From Sphingobium sp. (lineage in GTDB: Bacteria > Pseudomonadota > Alphaproteobacteria > Sphingomonadales > Sphingomonadaceae), in assembly GCA_023266575.1 (NCBI GenBank), contig JAHFPV010000010.1, positions 62,001-126,000 of the forward strand: DNA of 64,000 nucleotides, given 5' to 3'. The notes under the pieces were generated by a model. The model saw only the letters and a program-made list of their open reading frames with translations, did no database searches and had not been told where the DNA came from. This document shows, one piece after another, positions 21,505 through 38,512 of this stretch. The translations under genes and the position numbers were made by a program. Position 1 is the first letter of the stretch, and every line of letters begins with the position of its first letter.

Positions 21505-22665
21505 ATGACTGATTTGACTGCCGTTGACGCCACCGTTGCGCCTGCCGTAAAGCCCGCAACCCTTCCGGCCCGTCCCTTTTTCTCGTCCGGTCCCTGTGCC
21601 AAGCCGCCCGGCTGGAGCGCCGCTGCGCTCGCCACTGAGTCGCTGGGCCGTTCGCACCGGTCCAAGATCGGCAAGACCCGCTTAGCCTACTGCATCGACC
21701 TGATGCGCGAATTGCTGAACCTGCCCGACACCCACCGCATCGGCATCGTCCCCGGCTCCGACACCGGCGCGTTTGAAATGGCGATGTGGACGATGCTGGG
21801 CGCCCGCCCGGTCACGACCATCGCCTGGGAAAGCTTCGGCGAAGGCTGGGTGACGGACGCGGCCAAGCAGTTGAAGCTCGACCCCACCGTGATCCGCGCC
21901 GATTATGGCCAGCTGCCCGATCTGTCGGCGGTCGATTTCAGCCATGACGTGCTGTTCACCTGGAATGGCACGACGTCGGGCGTGCGCGTTCCCAATGCGG
22001 ACTTCATCCCCGCCGACCGCGAAGGCCTGACCTTCGCCGACGCGACCAGCGCGGTGTTCGCCTATGACATCGACTGGGCCAAGATCGACGTTGCCACCTT
22101 CTCCTGGCAGAAGGTGCTGGGCGGCGAGGGCGGCCATGGCGTGCTGATCCTTGGTCCCCGCGCCGTTGAGCGCCTCGAAACCTACACCCCCGCCTGGCCG
22201 CTGCCCAAGGTTTTCCGGCTCGTTTCCAAGGGCAAGCTGACCGAAGGCGTGTTCAAGGGCGAGACGATCAACACCCCCTCCATGCTGGCGGTCGAAGATG
22301 CGATCTTCGCGCTGGAATGGGGCAAGTCGATCGGCGGTGCCGCTGGCCTGATCGCCCGCAGCGACGCCAATGCTGCCGCTCTGGACAAGATTGTGGCGGA
22401 GCGCGACTGGCTCGGCCATCTCGCGGTCGATGAAGCCTCGCGCTCGAAAACCAGCGTCTGCCTGACCGTCGCGGGTGCCGACGAAGCCTTTATCAAGGCC
22501 TTCGCTGCCCTGCTCGAAAAGGAAGGCGCGGCACTCGACATCGCCGGCTATCGCGACGCCCCCGCCGGGCTTCGCATCTGGTGCGGCGCGACCGTCGACA
22601 CCGCCGACATCGAAGCGCTCGGCCCCTGGCTCGACTGGGCCTATGCGACCGTGAAGGCCGCTTAA
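21505..22665 (+). CDS. serC: Phosphoserine aminotransferase
   Basis: A 386-residue PLP enzyme that makes O-phosphoserine from 3-phosphohydroxypyruvate and glutamate, and also serves pyridoxal phosphate synthesis. It belongs to the alphaproteobacterial SerC type: RPFFSSGPCAKPPGW at the start, IVPGSDTGAFEMAMW, FTWNGTTSGVRVP, FADATSAVFAYDIDW, and SWQKVLGGEGGHGVL with the PLP-binding Lys. ATG 21505 follows AAGGAG; a long open upstream extension to 20701 is only antisense to the extensin-like gene. serA lies 127 bases downstream, so serine synthesis genes 2 and 1 are adjacent, separated by a palindromic repeat. Confidence 0.96.
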   Translation: MTDLTAVDATVAPAVKPATLPARPFFSSGPCAKPPGWSAAALATESLGRSHRSKIGKTRLAYCIDLMRELLNLPDTHRIGIVPGSDTGAFEMAMWTMLGARPVTTIAWESFGEGWVTDAAKQLKLDPTVIRADYGQLPDLSAVDFSHDVLFTWNGTTSGVRVPNADFIPADREGLTFADATSAVFAYDIDWAKIDVATFSWQKVLGGEGGHGVLILGPRAVERLETYTPAWPLPKVFRLVSKGKLTEGVFKGETINTPSMLAVEDAIFALEWGKSIGGAAGLIARSDANAAALDKIVAERDWLGHLAVDEASRSKTSVCLTVAGADEAFIKAFAALLEKEGAALDIAGYRDAPAGLRIWCGATVDTADIEALGPWLDWAYATVKAA

Positions 22666-22679
22666 TTTAAAACAAAGTC

Positions 22680-22766
22680 GTCATTCCCGCGAAGGCGGGA
22701 ATCCATCTCCCAGCCTATCGACAGGTGCAATGGCGGGAGATAGATCCCCGCCTGCGCGGGGATGAC
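22680..22766. repeat. Palindromic intergenic repeat between serC and serA
   Basis: GTCATTCCCGCGAAGGCGGGAAT...CTCCC (22678-22711) is mirrored by GGGAGATAGATCCCCGCC...GGGGATGAC (22735-22766). Each half also forms its own hairpin. This GTCATTCCCGC type is a widespread dispersed repeat in many proteobacteria. Confidence 0.88.
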
Positions 22767-22792
22767 GGGACTATTTTCCAAAGGAAATACAG

Positions 22793-24373
22793 ATGCCCAA
22801 AGTACTTATCAGCGACCAGATGGACCCCCGCGCCGCCGCGATCTTCCGGGAGCGTGGCGTCGATGTCGATGTCATCACCGGCAAGACCCCTGAAGAGTTG
22901 AAGGCGATGATCGGCCAATATGACGGCCTCGCCATTCGCAGCTCGACCAAGGTGACCAAGGACATCCTCGACGCCGCCACCAACCTGAAGGTCATTGGCC
23001 GCGCCGGGATCGGCGTCGACAATGTCGACATCCCCTATGCCTCGGCCAAGGGCGTGATCGTCATGAACACCCCGTTCGGCAACTCGATCACCACCGCCGA
23101 ACATGCCATCGCGCTCATCTTCGCACTGGCGCGCCAGATTCCAGAAGCCAACGCCCAGACCCAGCAGGGCCTGTGGCCCAAAAACGGCTTCATGGGCGTG
23201 GAAGTCACTGGCAAGGTGCTGGGCCTCATTGGCGCGGGCAATATCGGCTCGATCGTCGCCAGCCGCGCACTGGGCCTGAAAATGAAGGTCGTCGCGTTCG
23301 ATCCCTTCCTGACGCCCGAACGCGCCGTCGAAATGGGCGTGGAAAAGGCGGATCTGGACACGTTGCTGGCAAAGGCCGACTTCATCACCCTGCACACGCC
23401 GCTGACCGACCAGACCCGCAATATCCTGAGCCGTGAAAATCTCGCCAAGACCAAGAAGGGCGTGCGCATCGTCAACTGCGCGCGCGGCGGGCTGATCGAC
23501 GAAGCTGCGCTCAAGGATGCGCTCGATTCGGGCCAGGTCGCGGGCGCCGCGCTCGACGTGTTCCAGACCGAACCGGCCAAGGAATCGCCCTTGTTCGGCA
23601 CCCCCAATTTCATCTGCACCCCGCATCTGGGCGCGTCGACCGACGAAGCGCAGGTCAATGTCGCGTTGCAGGTCGCCGATCAGCTGTCCGACTATCTGCT
23701 CGACGGCGGCATCACCAATGCGCTGAACGTGCCCAGCCTGTCGGCGGAGGAAGCCCCCAAGCTCAAGCCCTATATGGCGATTGCCGAGAAGCTGGGCAGC
23801 CTGGTCGGCCAGCTGGAAGGCGACCAGATCACCGGCGTTGCGGTCGAAGTGGAGGGTCATGCCGCCGAACTGAACCAGAAGCCGATCACCGCCGCCGTAC
23901 TCGCAGGCCTGATGCGCGTCTATTCGGACACGGTGAACATGGTCAACGCGCCCTTCCTGGCCAAGGAACGCGGCCTTGACGTGCGCGAAGTGCGCCATGA
24001 CCGCGAAGGCGACTATCAGACGCTGGTGCGCGTCACCGTCACCACCGAAAGCGGCCAGCGTTCGGTTGCCGGCACTTTGTTCGGTCACGCAAGCCCGCGT
24101 CTGGTCGAACTGTTCGGCATCAAGGTGGAGGCCGATCTGGACGGCACCATGCTCTACATCGTCAACCAGGACGCGCCCGGTTTCATCGGTCGCCTGGGGT
24201 CGACGCTGGGTGCAGCCGACGTCAATATCGGCACCTTCCATCTTGGCCGTCGCAACCAGGGCGGCGAAGCCGTGCTGCTGCTGTCGGTCGACGGCACCGT
24301 CACCGAACCGCTCCGCTGGGAAATCTGCAACCTGACGGGCGTGAAACAGGTCAAGGTGCTGCGCTTCGCATAA
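22793..24373 (+). CDS. serA: D-3-phosphoglycerate dehydrogenase
   Basis: A 526-residue enzyme, the usual length of the long SerA form. It oxidises 3-phosphoglycerate to phosphohydroxypyruvate with NAD, the first step of serine synthesis. GRAGIGVDNVD, the Rossmann loop LGLIGAGNIGSIVA, NCARGGLIDEAAL (catalytic Arg), and CTPHLGASTDEA (catalytic His) are seen. An intervening ASB domain and a C-terminal ACT domain (MLYIVNQDAPGFIGRLG) follow; the ACT domain usually binds serine for feedback control. AAGGAAAT precedes the start. A DUF559 element is inserted immediately downstream. Confidence 0.97.
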   Translation: MPKVLISDQMDPRAAAIFRERGVDVDVITGKTPEELKAMIGQYDGLAIRSSTKVTKDILDAATNLKVIGRAGIGVDNVDIPYASAKGVIVMNTPFGNSITTAEHAIALIFALARQIPEANAQTQQGLWPKNGFMGVEVTGKVLGLIGAGNIGSIVASRALGLKMKVVAFDPFLTPERAVEMGVEKADLDTLLAKADFITLHTPLTDQTRNILSRENLAKTKKGVRIVNCARGGLIDEAALKDALDSGQVAGAALDVFQTEPAKESPLFGTPNFICTPHLGASTDEAQVNVALQVADQLSDYLLDGGITNALNVPSLSAEEAPKLKPYMAIAEKLGSLVGQLEGDQITGVAVEVEGHAAELNQKPITAAVLAGLMRVYSDTVNMVNAPFLAKERGLDVREVRHDREGDYQTLVRVTVTTESGQRSVAGTLFGHASPRLVELFGIKVEADLDGTMLYIVNQDAPGFIGRLGSTLGAADVNIGTFHLGRRNQGGEAVLLLSVDGTVTEPLRWEICNLTGVKQVKVLRFA

Positions 24374-24385
24374 GCTGCTCTAAAG

Positions 24386-24805
24386 CCCTCTCCCTCCGGG
24401 GAGAGGGTTGGGAGAGGGGGAGCAACAGTGCGGCTGGACCCAACACTGAAGCAGCGCGCAAAACATATGCGCGCCAACCCCACCCCCGCCGAACAGAAAC
24501 TCTGGCTTGCCCTGCGCGCCAACCGTTTTGAAAACCGACAATTCACGCGCCAGACCATCATCGCGCCCTATATCGTCGATTTCGCGTCAAAGGCCGCGGG
24601 CCTCATCATCGAAGTCGATGGGGATACACATTCCGCCAAAGATCGCTATGACGCGCGGCGAACCGAATTTCTGGAATCGCTGGGGTATCGCGTGATCCGT
24701 TTTGCCAATCCCGATGTCATCAGCAATATCGAGGGTGTATTGAGCGTGATTGCCGATGCGTTGCGCGTGCCCCCTCTCCCCAGCCCTCCCCCCCTAGGGG
24801 GAGGG
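24386..24805 (+). mobile_element. DUF559 nuclease cassette with terminal inverted repeats, copy 1
   Basis: The left end (24386-24419), a CCCTCTCCC/GGGGAGAGGG hairpin then TTGGGAGAGGGG, is the inverse of the right end (24771-24805), CCCCTCTCCCCAGCCC then CCCCCTAGGGGGAGGG, with only small differences. Between them lies one gene, a DUF559 nuclease. The unit is 420 bp, with no transposase and no obvious target duplication. It separates serA from hisZ. Confidence 0.7.
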
Positions 24806-24811
24806 AGCTAA
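24428..24811 (+). CDS. DUF559 endonuclease-domain protein, cassette 1
   Basis: A 127-residue protein of the DUF559 family, small PD-(D/E)xK-type nucleases related to very-short-patch-repair (Vsr) enzymes. Seen: LWLALRANRFENRQFTRQ, the core IVDFASKAAGLIIEVDGDTH (candidate catalytic Asp, Glu and Asp), and YRVIRFANPDVISNIEGVL. It starts with GTG 24428, and its GGGGGAG ribosome binding site is the inner edge of the left repeat; its last 15 residues (Pro/Gly-rich, LPSPPPLGGGS) are translated from the right repeat. The hisZ start is three bases after its stop. Function unknown; mobility of the cassette is an inference. Confidence 0.85.
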   Translation: MRLDPTLKQRAKHMRANPTPAEQKLWLALRANRFENRQFTRQTIIAPYIVDFASKAAGLIIEVDGDTHSAKDRYDARRTEFLESLGYRVIRFANPDVISNIEGVLSVIADALRVPPLPSPPPLGGGS

Positions 24812-31455: not shown

Positions 31456-31634
31456 CCCTCTCCCTTTGAGGGAGAGGGTGTGGAGACTTGGCAGCTTGCT
31501 GCCTAGTCGTAGCAGGGAGAGGGTGTGCTAAGCCAACGCAAGCCAGCCGCCTCTGCGTCGAACCCCCTCTTCCAAGTCCGCCTAAGCGACTGCGTCGCCA
31601 AGGCTTCCTATCCTTCTCCCCGGCGGGGAGAAGG
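31456..31634. repeat. 179-bp dispersed intergenic repeat, copy B (inverted)
   Basis: It contains the same blocks as copy A in reverse orientation: a CCCTCTCCC/GGGAGAGGG hairpin, then GACTTGGCAGC...GCCTAGTCGTAGC, later CCCCCTCTTCCAAGT and GCGTCGCCAAGGC, ending in a CCTTCTCCCC/GGGGAGAAGG hairpin. It lies between the bestrophin stop and the end of the second DAACS gene. Confidence 0.88.
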
Positions 31635-36260: not shown

Positions 36261-37217
36261 ATGCCCATGCCTTCGCCCCTGTCGCCTGAATCCCGTCGCC
36301 AGCGGATGGCGGGCCATATCCACCGCCACATCAACCGCGTCCGCCCCGGATCGCACCCGTTCGAGATTTTCAAGCGGGTCGCGGTCGGCACCTATAGCGA
36401 CGGGTTCATCCATGCCGGGAACCTCGCCTATCTCTCGCTGATGACGCTGTTCCCCTTCTTCATCGTCGCAGCGGCGGTGGCCAGTATCTTTGGCCGGACG
36501 CAGGACGGGGTGCAGGCAGTCAACGCTTTCCTCACCACCGTGCCGAGCGGGGTGGCGGAGGTCGTGCGCCAGCCGATCAACGATGTGCTGGCCGCCCGCT
36601 CCGGCCCCCTGCTGTGGCTGGGCGCGCTGGTGGGTCTGTGGACCGTGGGCAGCCTGATTGAAACGATCCGCGACATTCTCCGCCGCGCCTATGGCACCAA
36701 AAGCACCAAGCCCTTCTGGCGCTACCGGCTGGGCGCAGTCGGCATCACCCTCGTCAGCGTGGTCGCGGTGATGTTCGCTTTCTCGTTGCAGGTCGTCATC
36801 ACCGGCATCGACCAGTTTCTGCAACAGATATTGCCCTGGGCCGACGATGCGATCGCGCTGGTGGCGTCGGCCAAGCTGGTGCCGATGGGCATCGTCTGCG
36901 TCGCGCTCTGGTCCTTGTTCGTGTCGCTGACGCCGACCCTGTACAAGGATCGCCGCTTTCCCAAATGGCCCGGTGCGGTCGCCACATCGCTCTGGTGGTA
37001 TGCAACCACCTTGCTGTTGCCGCCCACCCTGTCGCTGCTGGGCGGCTATGACCGCACCTATGGCAGTCTGGCGGGCGTCATGATCACGCTCATTTTTTTC
37101 TTTCTCGTCGGGCTTGGCGTGGTAATTGGCGCGGAACTGAATGCGGCGCTGGCGGAATTTCCCGAAGAGGAAGAGGCCGCAGCGCCGGACACCCAAGGGA
37201 ATGGAACGACGATATGA
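36261..37217 (+). CDS. YihY/BrkB family membrane protein
   Basis: A 318-residue protein with about six membrane segments and polar N- and C-termini. GNLAYLSLMTLFPFFIVAAAV, LWLGALVGLWTVGSLIETIRDILRRAYG, and the C-terminal TLLLPPTLSLLGGYDRTYGSLAGVMITLIFFFLVGLGVVIGAELNA mark the YihY/BrkB family, once misnamed RNase BN. The function is unknown. Its stop overlaps the fabI start by four bases (ATGA), so translation is coupled to fatty acid synthesis. The C-terminal tail is acidic. Confidence 0.9.
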   Translation: MPMPSPLSPESRRQRMAGHIHRHINRVRPGSHPFEIFKRVAVGTYSDGFIHAGNLAYLSLMTLFPFFIVAAAVASIFGRTQDGVQAVNAFLTTVPSGVAEVVRQPINDVLAARSGPLLWLGALVGLWTVGSLIETIRDILRRAYGTKSTKPFWRYRLGAVGITLVSVVAVMFAFSLQVVITGIDQFLQQILPWADDAIALVASAKLVPMGIVCVALWSLFVSLTPTLYKDRRFPKWPGAVATSLWWYATTLLLPPTLSLLGGYDRTYGSLAGVMITLIFFFLVGLGVVIGAELNAALAEFPEEEEAAAPDTQGNGTTI

Positions 37218-38020
37218 ACGGCTTGATGGCAGGAAAGCGTGGCCTCATCATGGGCCTGGCCAATGACAAGTCGCTGGCCTGGGGCATTGCGAAAGCGCTG
37301 CATGAACAGGGCGCGGAACTGGCTTTCTCCTATCAGGGCGACGCGCTGGCCAAGCGGGTCCGGCCATTGGCAGAGCAGGTCGGATCAGACTTTCTGATCG
37401 ATTGCGACGTCACCGACATGGACAAGCTGGACGCAGCCTTTGCAGAGATTGAGGCGCGCTGGGGCGGGCTGGATTTCGTGGTTCATGCGATCGGCTTTTC
37501 CGACAAGAATGAGCTGCGCGGCCTCTATGTCGACACCAGCCTGAAAAATTTCCTGCTGACCATGAACGTGTCTGCTTACAGTTTCGTGGCAGTCACCCGT
37601 CGCGCCCGCGCGCTGATGCCCAATGGCGGCAGCATCCTGACACTGAGCTATTATGGCGCGGAAAAGGTCATCCCCCATTATAACGTCATGGGCGTGGCCA
37701 AGGCGGCGCTGGAAACCAGCGTCAAATATCTGGCGATGGATCTGGGACCGGAAAATATCCGCGTCAACGCCATCTCCGCCGGGCCGATCAAGACGCTGGC
37801 CGCCAGTGGCATCGGCGATTTCCGTTACATTCTCAAATGGAACGAACTGAACTCGCCCCTGCGCCGCAATGTCACGATCGAGGATGTCGGCGGCGCGGGC
37901 CTTTACTTGCTGTCCGATCTGGCAAGCGGCGTGACTGGCGAAATCCACCATGTCGATGCCGGCTATAACGTCATCGGCATGAAGGCCGAGGACGCCCCGG
38001 ACATCGCATTGGACAAGTGA
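37214..38020 (+). CDS. fabI: Enoyl-[acyl-carrier-protein] reductase (NADH)
   Basis: A 268-residue SDR-fold enzyme carrying out the last reduction of the fatty acid elongation cycle. GLANDKSLAWGIAKALHEQGA is the FabI cofactor loop, VHAIGFSDKNELRG follows, and SYYGAEKVIPHYNVMGVAKAALE carries the two Tyr and the Lys of the active site. ISAGPIKTLAASGIGDF and the C-terminal VTGEIHHVDAGYNVIGM confirm FabI rather than a general SDR. FabI is the triclosan target. Coupled to the brkB gene by overlap. A DUF559 cassette separates it from aroC. Confidence 0.96.
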   Translation: MNGLMAGKRGLIMGLANDKSLAWGIAKALHEQGAELAFSYQGDALAKRVRPLAEQVGSDFLIDCDVTDMDKLDAAFAEIEARWGGLDFVVHAIGFSDKNELRGLYVDTSLKNFLLTMNVSAYSFVAVTRRARALMPNGGSILTLSYYGAEKVIPHYNVMGVAKAALETSVKYLAMDLGPENIRVNAISAGPIKTLAASGIGDFRYILKWNELNSPLRRNVTIEDVGGAGLYLLSDLASGVTGEIHHVDAGYNVIGMKAEDAPDIALDK

Positions 38021-38027
38021 CAACTGA

Positions 38028-38505
38028 CCCTCTCCCTTTAGGGGAGAGGGAGGGGCCCGCCGCGAAGCGGTGGGAGGGTGAGGGGAATGAAGCGACCTGA
38101 TCCTGCAACGCCAGACTCGCTGAATCGGGTTCGCGCCATGCGACGCGACCCGACCGAGCCGGAAAGGCGGCTCTGGGCCAGATTGCGCAGTCGCCAGCTT
38201 GCAGGACTAAAATTCCGGCGACAGGTTTGGCTGGTCGATTACATCGCTGATTTCTATTGCGCCGATCTCCGTCTGGTCATCGAAGTTGACGGCGATGACC
38301 ATGCCGTTAGGGAAGCAGCCGACCGGCATCGGTCGGAAAGACTGGCACGAGAAGGCTTCCGCATCGTCCGTTTCGCCAATGCGGATGTGTTGAGCAATAT
38401 CGAAGGGGTGTTGGAGACAATATTGATGACGGCGCGCCAAAACCCCTCACCTTCCCACCCGGCTGCGCCGGGCGGGCCCCTCCCTCTCCCCCAAGGGGAG
38501 AGGGG
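38028..38505 (+). mobile_element. DUF559 nuclease cassette with terminal inverted repeats, copy 2
   Basis: Left end 38028-38085 (CCCTCTCCC-TTTA-GGGGAGAGGG, then AGGGGCCCGCC, a CGCGAAGCG loop, and GGGAGGGTGAGGGG) is matched in reverse by right end 38443-38505 (CCCCTCACCTTCCCACC, a CCGGCTGCGCCGG loop, GGCGGGCCCCTCCC, TCTCCCCCAAGGGGAGAGGGG). About 58-63 bp inverted repeats enclose one DUF559 gene. The 478-bp unit lies between fabI and aroC. No transposase is present. Confidence 0.75.
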
Positions 38506-38512
38506 AATATGA
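38087..38512 (+). CDS. DUF559 endonuclease-domain protein, cassette 2
   Basis: A 141-residue DUF559 protein from ATG 38087. Same layout as cassette 1: [39 protein letters not shown] (candidate PD-(D/E)xK core), [24 protein letters not shown]. The two proteins share the core but differ at roughly half the positions, so they are not a recent duplicate. The ribosome binding site GAGGGGA is the inner edge of the left repeat, and the last 20 or so residues ([19 protein letters not shown]) are encoded by the right repeat. The stop overlaps the aroC ATG by four bases. Function unknown; related to Vsr-type nucleases. Confidence 0.85.

Follow-up and report, generated by a model that had tools for sequence, protein, structure and literature searches.

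A DUF559 nuclease gene between two inverted, structure-forming ends in Sphingobium: a probable small mobile or once mobile element

Of the described systems, the REP/RAYT pair (REPtrons, REPINs) comes closest to the locus presented here. Its enzyme is an HUH tyrosine transposase, and the RAYT genes are inherited largely vertically. The available part of PMC3733652 describes small palindromic repeats that stand as inverted pairs around the enzyme gene, together with dispersed gene-less single and paired copies, and treats the CGTC-REPs, in 2013, as repeats without a dedicated transposase. The BoxC/PIT/TM or 'intrastrand triplex' repeats of E. coli include five cases of inverted pairs, and the accessible part of that source does not tie them to mobile elements or to classes of genes (PMC4666352). 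Terminal inverted repeats, a mobile unit and gene-less derivatives are also found with insertion sequences and MITEs. As to proteins of the DUF559 domain family, a profile comparison of 2005 connected E. coli YcjD (PRK09767) with Vsr (PMC1189080, available part), and Caulobacter VsrA is needed for a DNA-damage response upon loss of a solitary cytosine methyltransferase, so that at least one DUF559-domain protein acts in vivo; in the portion of the text at hand no mobility is described for VsrA (PMC12907096).

The locus lies in a 64,000-nucleotide stretch of a Sphingobium sp. contig (JAHFPV010000010.1, positions 62,001 to 126,000), called the window below. It consists of the following features:

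24386..24420, + strand: left terminal repeat, a BoxC/PIT/TM-type end with the hairpin CCCTCTCCC/GGGAGAGGG, a TT linker and a third purine tract GGGAGAGGG on the gene-ward side
24416..24422, + strand: putative ribosome binding site GGGGGAG, Shine-Dalgarno-like in sequence, overlapping the left repeat at its inner edge
24428..24811, + strand: DUF559 nuclease gene with a GTG start, 127 aa, E...D...ExD...H residues present
24770..24805, - strand: right terminal repeat, an inverted copy of the left one, supplying 12 of the 13 final codons of the gene (PPLPSPPPLGGGS)

The gene matches PF04480 with an E-value of 3e-35 (120.8 bits, the Pfam curated cut-off being 20.6), and it lies between serA, which codes for a phosphoglycerate dehydrogenase, and hisZ, which codes for a histidyl-tRNA-synthetase-like protein. 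The two repeats are imperfect copies of each other: aligned in inverted orientation they are identical in 30 of 36 columns, and an independent repeat search returned the same inverted pair (78% over 23 nt). Their inverted-end score is 40, which is reached at none of 593 places of the same geometry in the window (maximum 36). These results bear out an earlier note on this DNA, which had described a nuclease gene between ends that are inverse copies of each other, a C-terminus read from the right repeat, and an insertion between serA and hisZ. DUF559 is the sole gene recognised between the repeats, with no transposase gene; Pfam scans of this element and of a second one in the window gave DUF559, MTES_1575 and TY-Chap3 only, and thus no HUH tyrosine transposase. 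It is important to point out that the architecture of the left repeat was read from the sequence. The automatic parse read this end with a longer stem, and the fit of its third tract was then poor (7/11); the hairpins of this element are weakly supported by DNA folding (z -1.8 and -1.0).

The second element and a solitary repeat were located as follows:

38028..38085, + strand: left terminal repeat of the second element, class II (see below), with outer hairpin, inner hairpin and third purine tract
38087..38512, + strand: second DUF559 gene, with ATG at 38087 (GTG at 38078 also possible), flanked by a FabI-like ORF and aroC
38443..38504, - strand: right terminal repeat, an inverted copy of 38028-38085
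31456..31523, + strand: solitary repeat without nuclease gene, with the hairpin CCCTCTCCC/GGGAGAGGG, an inner hairpin GGCAGC..GCTGCC and a third tract GGGAGAGGG (architecture by eye)

The ends of the second element (38028-38512) are better matched than those of the first, with a score of 82, and its hairpins are strongly supported by DNA folding (z -4.1 and -3.6). Its gene scores 118.5 bits against PF04480; the ORF at 37214-38020 on one side is what we take to be a FabI-like gene, and aroC starts at 38509 on the other. In the whole genome, the pattern for the triplex-type repeat gave 74 matches at 53 distinct places and the reversed pattern 4 matches. Several of the gene-less repeats are, by eye, short inverted doublets, and copies of the end type of another DUF559 locus of the genus, L007, recur at many places in related genomes. 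The only Rfam matches of the window at gathering scores are two tRNAs.

The ends are mostly built alike: the hairpin has pyrimidines in its 5' arm and purines in its 3' arm, and on its inner side comes a third tract, of purines, as a mirror of the 3' arm; an A of that arm may become T in the third tract, and the polarity is fixed, inward. Among 247 ends with a third-tract fit of at least 0.8, 158 belong to class I, with a linker of 2-5 nt (mostly 3), and 86 to class II, with a linker of 12-29 nt and often an inner hairpin. In the 349 ends whose tail was usable, the mean fit of the third tract is 0.84 to its own stem, against 0.75 for the tails of other stems and 0.65 for shuffled ones, and a fit of at least 0.85 is found in 63%, 25% and 4% of the cases, respectively. 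Stem and third tract thus covary among the DUF559 ends. Other end types occur in a minority of the passing loci (e.g. L012, L074, L131, L154, L186); at L074, from Pseudomonadota, the DUF559 gene has inverted ends of ~130 bp, more elaborate than the usual 35-65 bp.

Compared with the BoxC/PIT/TM repeats, as far as the available text of PMC4666352 describes them, the ends have the same architecture, with a core CCCTCTCCC..GGGAGAGGG..GGGTGAGGG, and the same arrangement in inverted pairs; the third tract after the hairpin mirrors the purine arm and may fold into the predicted triplex. What differs is that the repeats here bound a nuclease gene. From REP/RAYT the unit differs in having a PD-(D/E)XK nuclease instead of an HUH tyrosine transposase, and in ends that carry the additional mirrored third purine tract but no GTAG tag, which was not found at the repeat foot in position counts 5' of the hairpin for two groups of ends. 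With neither the transposase nor the tag, the unit is not a RAYT system.

Matched ends were found to be common around DUF559 genes. In the genome of the window, all seven DUF559 genes found have locus-matched inverted ends. PF04480 is present in 56 of 61 genomes of the genus, and 94 of 97 DUF559 loci score above 31 (median 60), these being the seven own loci, 30 best matches and 60 further listed places, hence not a random draw. The corresponding shifted places reach 34 at most, with a median of 21 (n=192), and the direct orientation has a median of 32. A DUF559 match is present in 68 of 200 Pseudomonadota genomes, in 47 of them at E below 1e-10 (hand count); 18 of 30 DUF559 loci sampled there score above 29 (shifted maximum 31, n=60) and 12 do not. 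In a cross-phylum set, consisting of the best 80 of at least 580 relatives in genome contigs, 69 loci score above 31, or 68 of 79 when a run-of-N artefact (L124) is left out, and one of them (L136) passes only via a poly-C run. The shifted places of this set have a 99th percentile of 32, near the threshold of 31, and a maximum of 41 (n=287). The passing records come from alpha-, beta-, gamma-, delta- and zetaproteobacteria, Nitrospirae, Chloroflexi and Gastranaerophilales, with Daviesbacteria marginal (32). All these samples of DUF559 loci favour strong profile matches. In the control family YCII, which is small and non-nuclease, none of 30 loci exceeds 31 (maximum 26; one locus, L388, is incomplete), and swapping flanks between loci gives medians of 22-26, compared to observed medians of 42-60, with single swapped flanks up to 85. 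The earlier note had named a lack of such ends at most DUF559 genes as what would overturn its reading; the genus, Pseudomonadota and cross-phylum counts go the other way. The unit of a DUF559 gene and matched ends is real and general.

The triplex (TM) motif and the gene family also co-occur. The motif is present in 37 of the 200 genomes, and a strong DUF559 match (E below 1e-10) in 27 of these 37 vs 20 of the 163 others (p 5e-13, by hand count and with kinship ignored); the strong match is absent from 10 of the 37. Two genomes are rich in the canonical motif: G260 holds 127 copies, those listed being mostly inverted pairs ~111 bp apart, and G233, which is 87% complete and has no strong DUF559, holds 124.

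In E. coli, YcjD belongs to the same domain family but has repeats on the right side only, and two ycjD loci, with a score of 20, do not pass. In the sapF-fabI region (L258-L266), the DUF559 gene ycjD has BoxC-like repeats to the right, and to the left it has an unrelated palindrome, CTCATTCTGACAAGA. At least 80% of a 700-bp query is held by 3309 of 5426 genomes. Another option considered was that ycjD is a clean insertion polymorphism; this was rejected, since the four fetched loci without ycjD hold efflux genes after sapF. A PF04480 control search matched 2 of 14 named genomes, E. coli not among them, perhaps owing to a strain without ycjD. One gonococcal DUF559 locus is marginal, with a score of 33 and a far stronger direct repeat (163).

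Concerning the enzyme, the positions corresponding to E15, D44, E55, D57 and H61 are kept in 204-205 of 206 loci, i.e. the active site is intact and conserved. An AlphaFold2 model of one protein (L083, with 19 relatives; pLDDT 88.7) resembles 3hrl, a gonococcal endonuclease-like protein, and, next, the homing endonuclease I-Bth0305I (3r3p; profile E 7.5e-6, Foldseek E 3.2e-5), with weaker likeness to PvuRts1I and Vsr. Sequence and model together indicate a PD-(D/E)XK-type fold with an acidic active site. I-Bth0305I, whose catalytic domain is related, is named 'mobile intron protein' in the PDB, whereas the gene here is stand-alone, intergenic and provided with inverted ends. No Pfam match to the Vsr family was found at E up to 1, and that fold is only distantly similar. 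The defence models of PADLOC gave partial matches only, the best (1.3e-4) covering 90 positions of a 1911-position model.

Evidence for movement comes from several sites. We aligned the 14 listed pairs of genus loci whose proteins are at least 70% identical and whose flanks do not match. Homology ends no further than 27 bp from the outer edge of the repeat on the left side of all 14 and on the right side of 12, both exceptions involving L243; the pairs fall into about four locus groups and are hence not independent. Related elements stand at two places of one genome (L206 and L247). The L007 site was compared in 16 chosen genomes (L307-L322). Two genes stand only a few bases apart here, and the gap between them is empty in five of the genomes (flanks 0-14 bp apart) and filled in the other 11 by four kinds of occupant, each with a nuclease-like gene: this DUF559 element in five, a different DUF559-like gene in reverse orientation in three, a GIY-YIG gene bounded by matched ends of its own in one, and a GIY-YIG-like gene without ends in two, the second and the last being named by eye from translations. 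For the reverse inserts, matched ends were scored in G009 and G025, and the whole longer insert of G076 fails. With four occupant kinds in one gap, the L007 site is an insertion hot spot. The end-to-end homology, which hardly extends beyond the ends, and the empty state of this site in 5 of 16 genomes point to the DUF559 gene and its repeats as a mobile unit.

At the L206 site, re-aligned in nine relatives, the flanks are 12-126 bp apart in seven and about 890-900 bp in two, none of them base-clean, and in the copy of G015 the extra flank amounts to about 72-77 and 46-48 bp. At the junctions of this site and of the L007 site we saw no target duplication, but roughly 10-75 bp of extra flank per side blurs them. 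The lack of a transposase in the unit distinguishes it from insertion sequences and MITEs.

For the serA-hisZ site itself, 30 loci were surveyed, in four of which the serA end was not located. DUF559 stands upstream of hisZ in seven, once apparently frameshifted; a solitary repeat is present in two, and several others have, by eye, another palindrome family. Four close relatives without DUF559 (L039, L040, L042, L045) hold a CGTTCGTCCTGAGC/GTCGAAGG palindrome dimer in the spacer, of the GIY-YIG-associated type by eye. The DUF559 and the GIY-YIG-associated repeat families thus appear to exchange at this site. The earlier note had proposed that the element would be cleanly present or absent here, with the flanks rejoining. 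Its presence does vary, and a clean empty state exists at the L007 site, but the serA-hisZ spacers often carry other repeats and do not rejoin cleanly.

Movement must be rare, because most close DUF559 homologues in the genus share both flanks. Among 12 serA-hisZ orthologues (66 pairs) the median dN/dS is 0.11 (range 0-0.24), i.e. the gene is under purifying selection. For 15 pairs from six serA-hisZ loci, dS of DUF559 relative to hisZ is 0.34-1.16 and follows hisZ in most, with 13 values at 0.67-1.16 and the others at 0.34 and 0.41. In the 12 orthologues, left ends score 63 across loci vs 49 for left against right within a locus, which indicates that the ends are inherited and not homogenised; concerted evolution as the cause of the matching ends is accordingly unsupported. 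The correlation between nuclease and end similarity is weak overall (Spearman 0.114, maximum of 300 null values 0.112). Among pairs without homologous flanks, end similarity grows with nuclease relatedness, the mean end score being ~22-28 below a relatedness of 0.6, 42 at 0.6-0.7 and 60 above 0.7. The 27 orphan repeats taken from the genome of the window do not resemble its own DUF559 ends significantly more closely than they do the ends of loci drawn at random from the genus, the observed mean being reached in 8 of 60 draws. Inheritance in place and purifying selection point to a long-lived, REP/RAYT-like resident more than to an actively homing gene, and the orthologous places, a dN/dS of about 0.1 and the non-significant test of cognate repeats speak against a hyperactive selfish element. 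The idea of a transposase-less mobile unit with a single nuclease, put forward in the earlier note, is upheld, the unit being a recurrent one with matched ends; its nuclease-driven, homing-like spread finds less support, close homologues being mostly inherited in place.

Prompted by the GIY-YIG occupant of the L007 site, we tested two sets of GIY-YIG loci in the genus. Matched inverted ends are present at 25 of 30 PF01541 loci (L323-L352; shifted maximum 26, n=60), the ends being of CCGTTCG types, mostly CCGTTCG..CTGAGC..GTCGAAGG, with the form CCGTTCGYCCTGAGCNNAGTCGAAGG. In the G020 GIY-YIG subfamily (L353-L382), 29 of 30 loci pass (shifted maximum 31, n=58); 24 of these 29 are CGTC-tagged by regular expression (CGTCATGCTGAACTTGTTTCAGCATCCA and CGTCATTCCCGC types), and one, L377, does not look palindromic. 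Together with the DUF559 results, two unrelated nuclease folds are thus boxed by different palindromes in one genus, and the G020 subfamily is a candidate enzyme for the CGTC-REPs. The window has, by eye, a CGTC-type REP dimer of its own at 22679-22767 (CGTCATTCCCGCGAAGGCGGGAATCCA ... GATCCCCGCCTGCGCGGGGATGACG), just upstream of serA and with no gene inside; a repeat search on 22600-22860 reported no inverted pair, although two hairpins are plain by eye. In the open-licence PMC literature, we found no paper that joins GIY-YIG with repetitive extragenic palindromic, and none that joins DUF559 with inverted repeat.

The best explanation of 24386-24805 is a small element that moves or once moved and that combines a single PD-(D/E)XK nuclease gene with two inverted, structure-forming ends, and the DUF559 unit is probably a REP-like element whose movement the nuclease drives. 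In such a scenario, the nuclease would recognise single-stranded ends folded into a hairpin with a mirrored third strand, and would cut at or near them, after which copying into short gaps between genes could be completed by host repair or replication. Single or paired ends that lack a gene would represent non-autonomous copies, mobilised in the same way. The element would then operate in the manner of a REP/RAYT pair, its enzyme being unrelated to RAYT.

Four other explanations were considered. The repeats could be moved by another enzyme, such as a RAYT or a host pathway, with DUF559 captured by chance as passive cargo. The link between nuclease and ends is indeed one of sequence, the motif occurs in 10 of 37 genomes without a strong DUF559 match, and the orphan repeats gave no significant cognate signal; but DUF559 sits inside such repeats in several classes of Proteobacteria, in Nitrospirae and in Chloroflexi, while the control family never does (0/30), and the end type tracks the nuclease type among the nearest non-orthologous pairs. 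We therefore consider a passive role unlikely. That the similarity of the ends reflects chance or low complexity in GC-rich intergenic DNA is extremely improbable: the ends are purine/pyrimidine-rich, such repeats are common in the genus and single swapped flanks score high, yet the in-window, shifted, swapped and YCII controls led us to reject it, with few shifted places reaching the threshold and the swap medians far from the observed ones.

The two remaining explanations place the gene itself at the centre. A homing-type selfish gene, cutting the gene-less allele and being copied in by recombination with the repeats as a secondary matter, would fit the relation to I-Bth0305I in fold and sequence, the occupation of one site in several species and the two low dS ratios. 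The other 13 ratios stay close to hisZ, one site holds different nucleases in both orientations, and homing alone leaves the matched inverted ends and the related copies at unrelated sites unexplained, which makes it quite improbable. A resident repair gene of the host, encoding a Vsr-like mismatch enzyme and having relics or regulatory or terminator structures as its ends, would account for the low dN/dS over 66 pairs and for the mostly vertical inheritance, and it agrees with the DNA-damage phenotype of Caulobacter VsrA and its link to a solitary cytosine methyltransferase (PMC12907096, available part). It is difficult to reconcile with up to 10 DUF559 matches per genome, with their patchy presence, and with the end-to-end homology and insertion into otherwise empty gaps, and we rate it as quite improbable too. 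The nuclease-driven unit thus remains our preferred reading.

A wider proposal can be put forward tentatively, as a real possibility that falls a little short of being probable: there may be a class of transposase-less elements in which small nucleases mobilise palindromic repeats, with DUF559 acting on BoxC-like triplex ends, the GIY-YIG subfamily on CGTC-REPs and other GIY-YIG enzymes on ends of the CCGTTCG.. type, and these nucleases would hence be the enzymes behind major orphan repeat families. About 200 related genes were examined, mostly boxed alike, which suggests that the nucleases may be the missing spreading partners of the repeats. If nuclease genes bounded by repeats are the autonomous partners, the spread of small palindromes becomes testable with enzymes of ~120 residues. 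DUF559, listed with 'unknown function' in Pfam, would gain a role, and structure-specific nucleases would join the enzymes that are able to build a mobile element.
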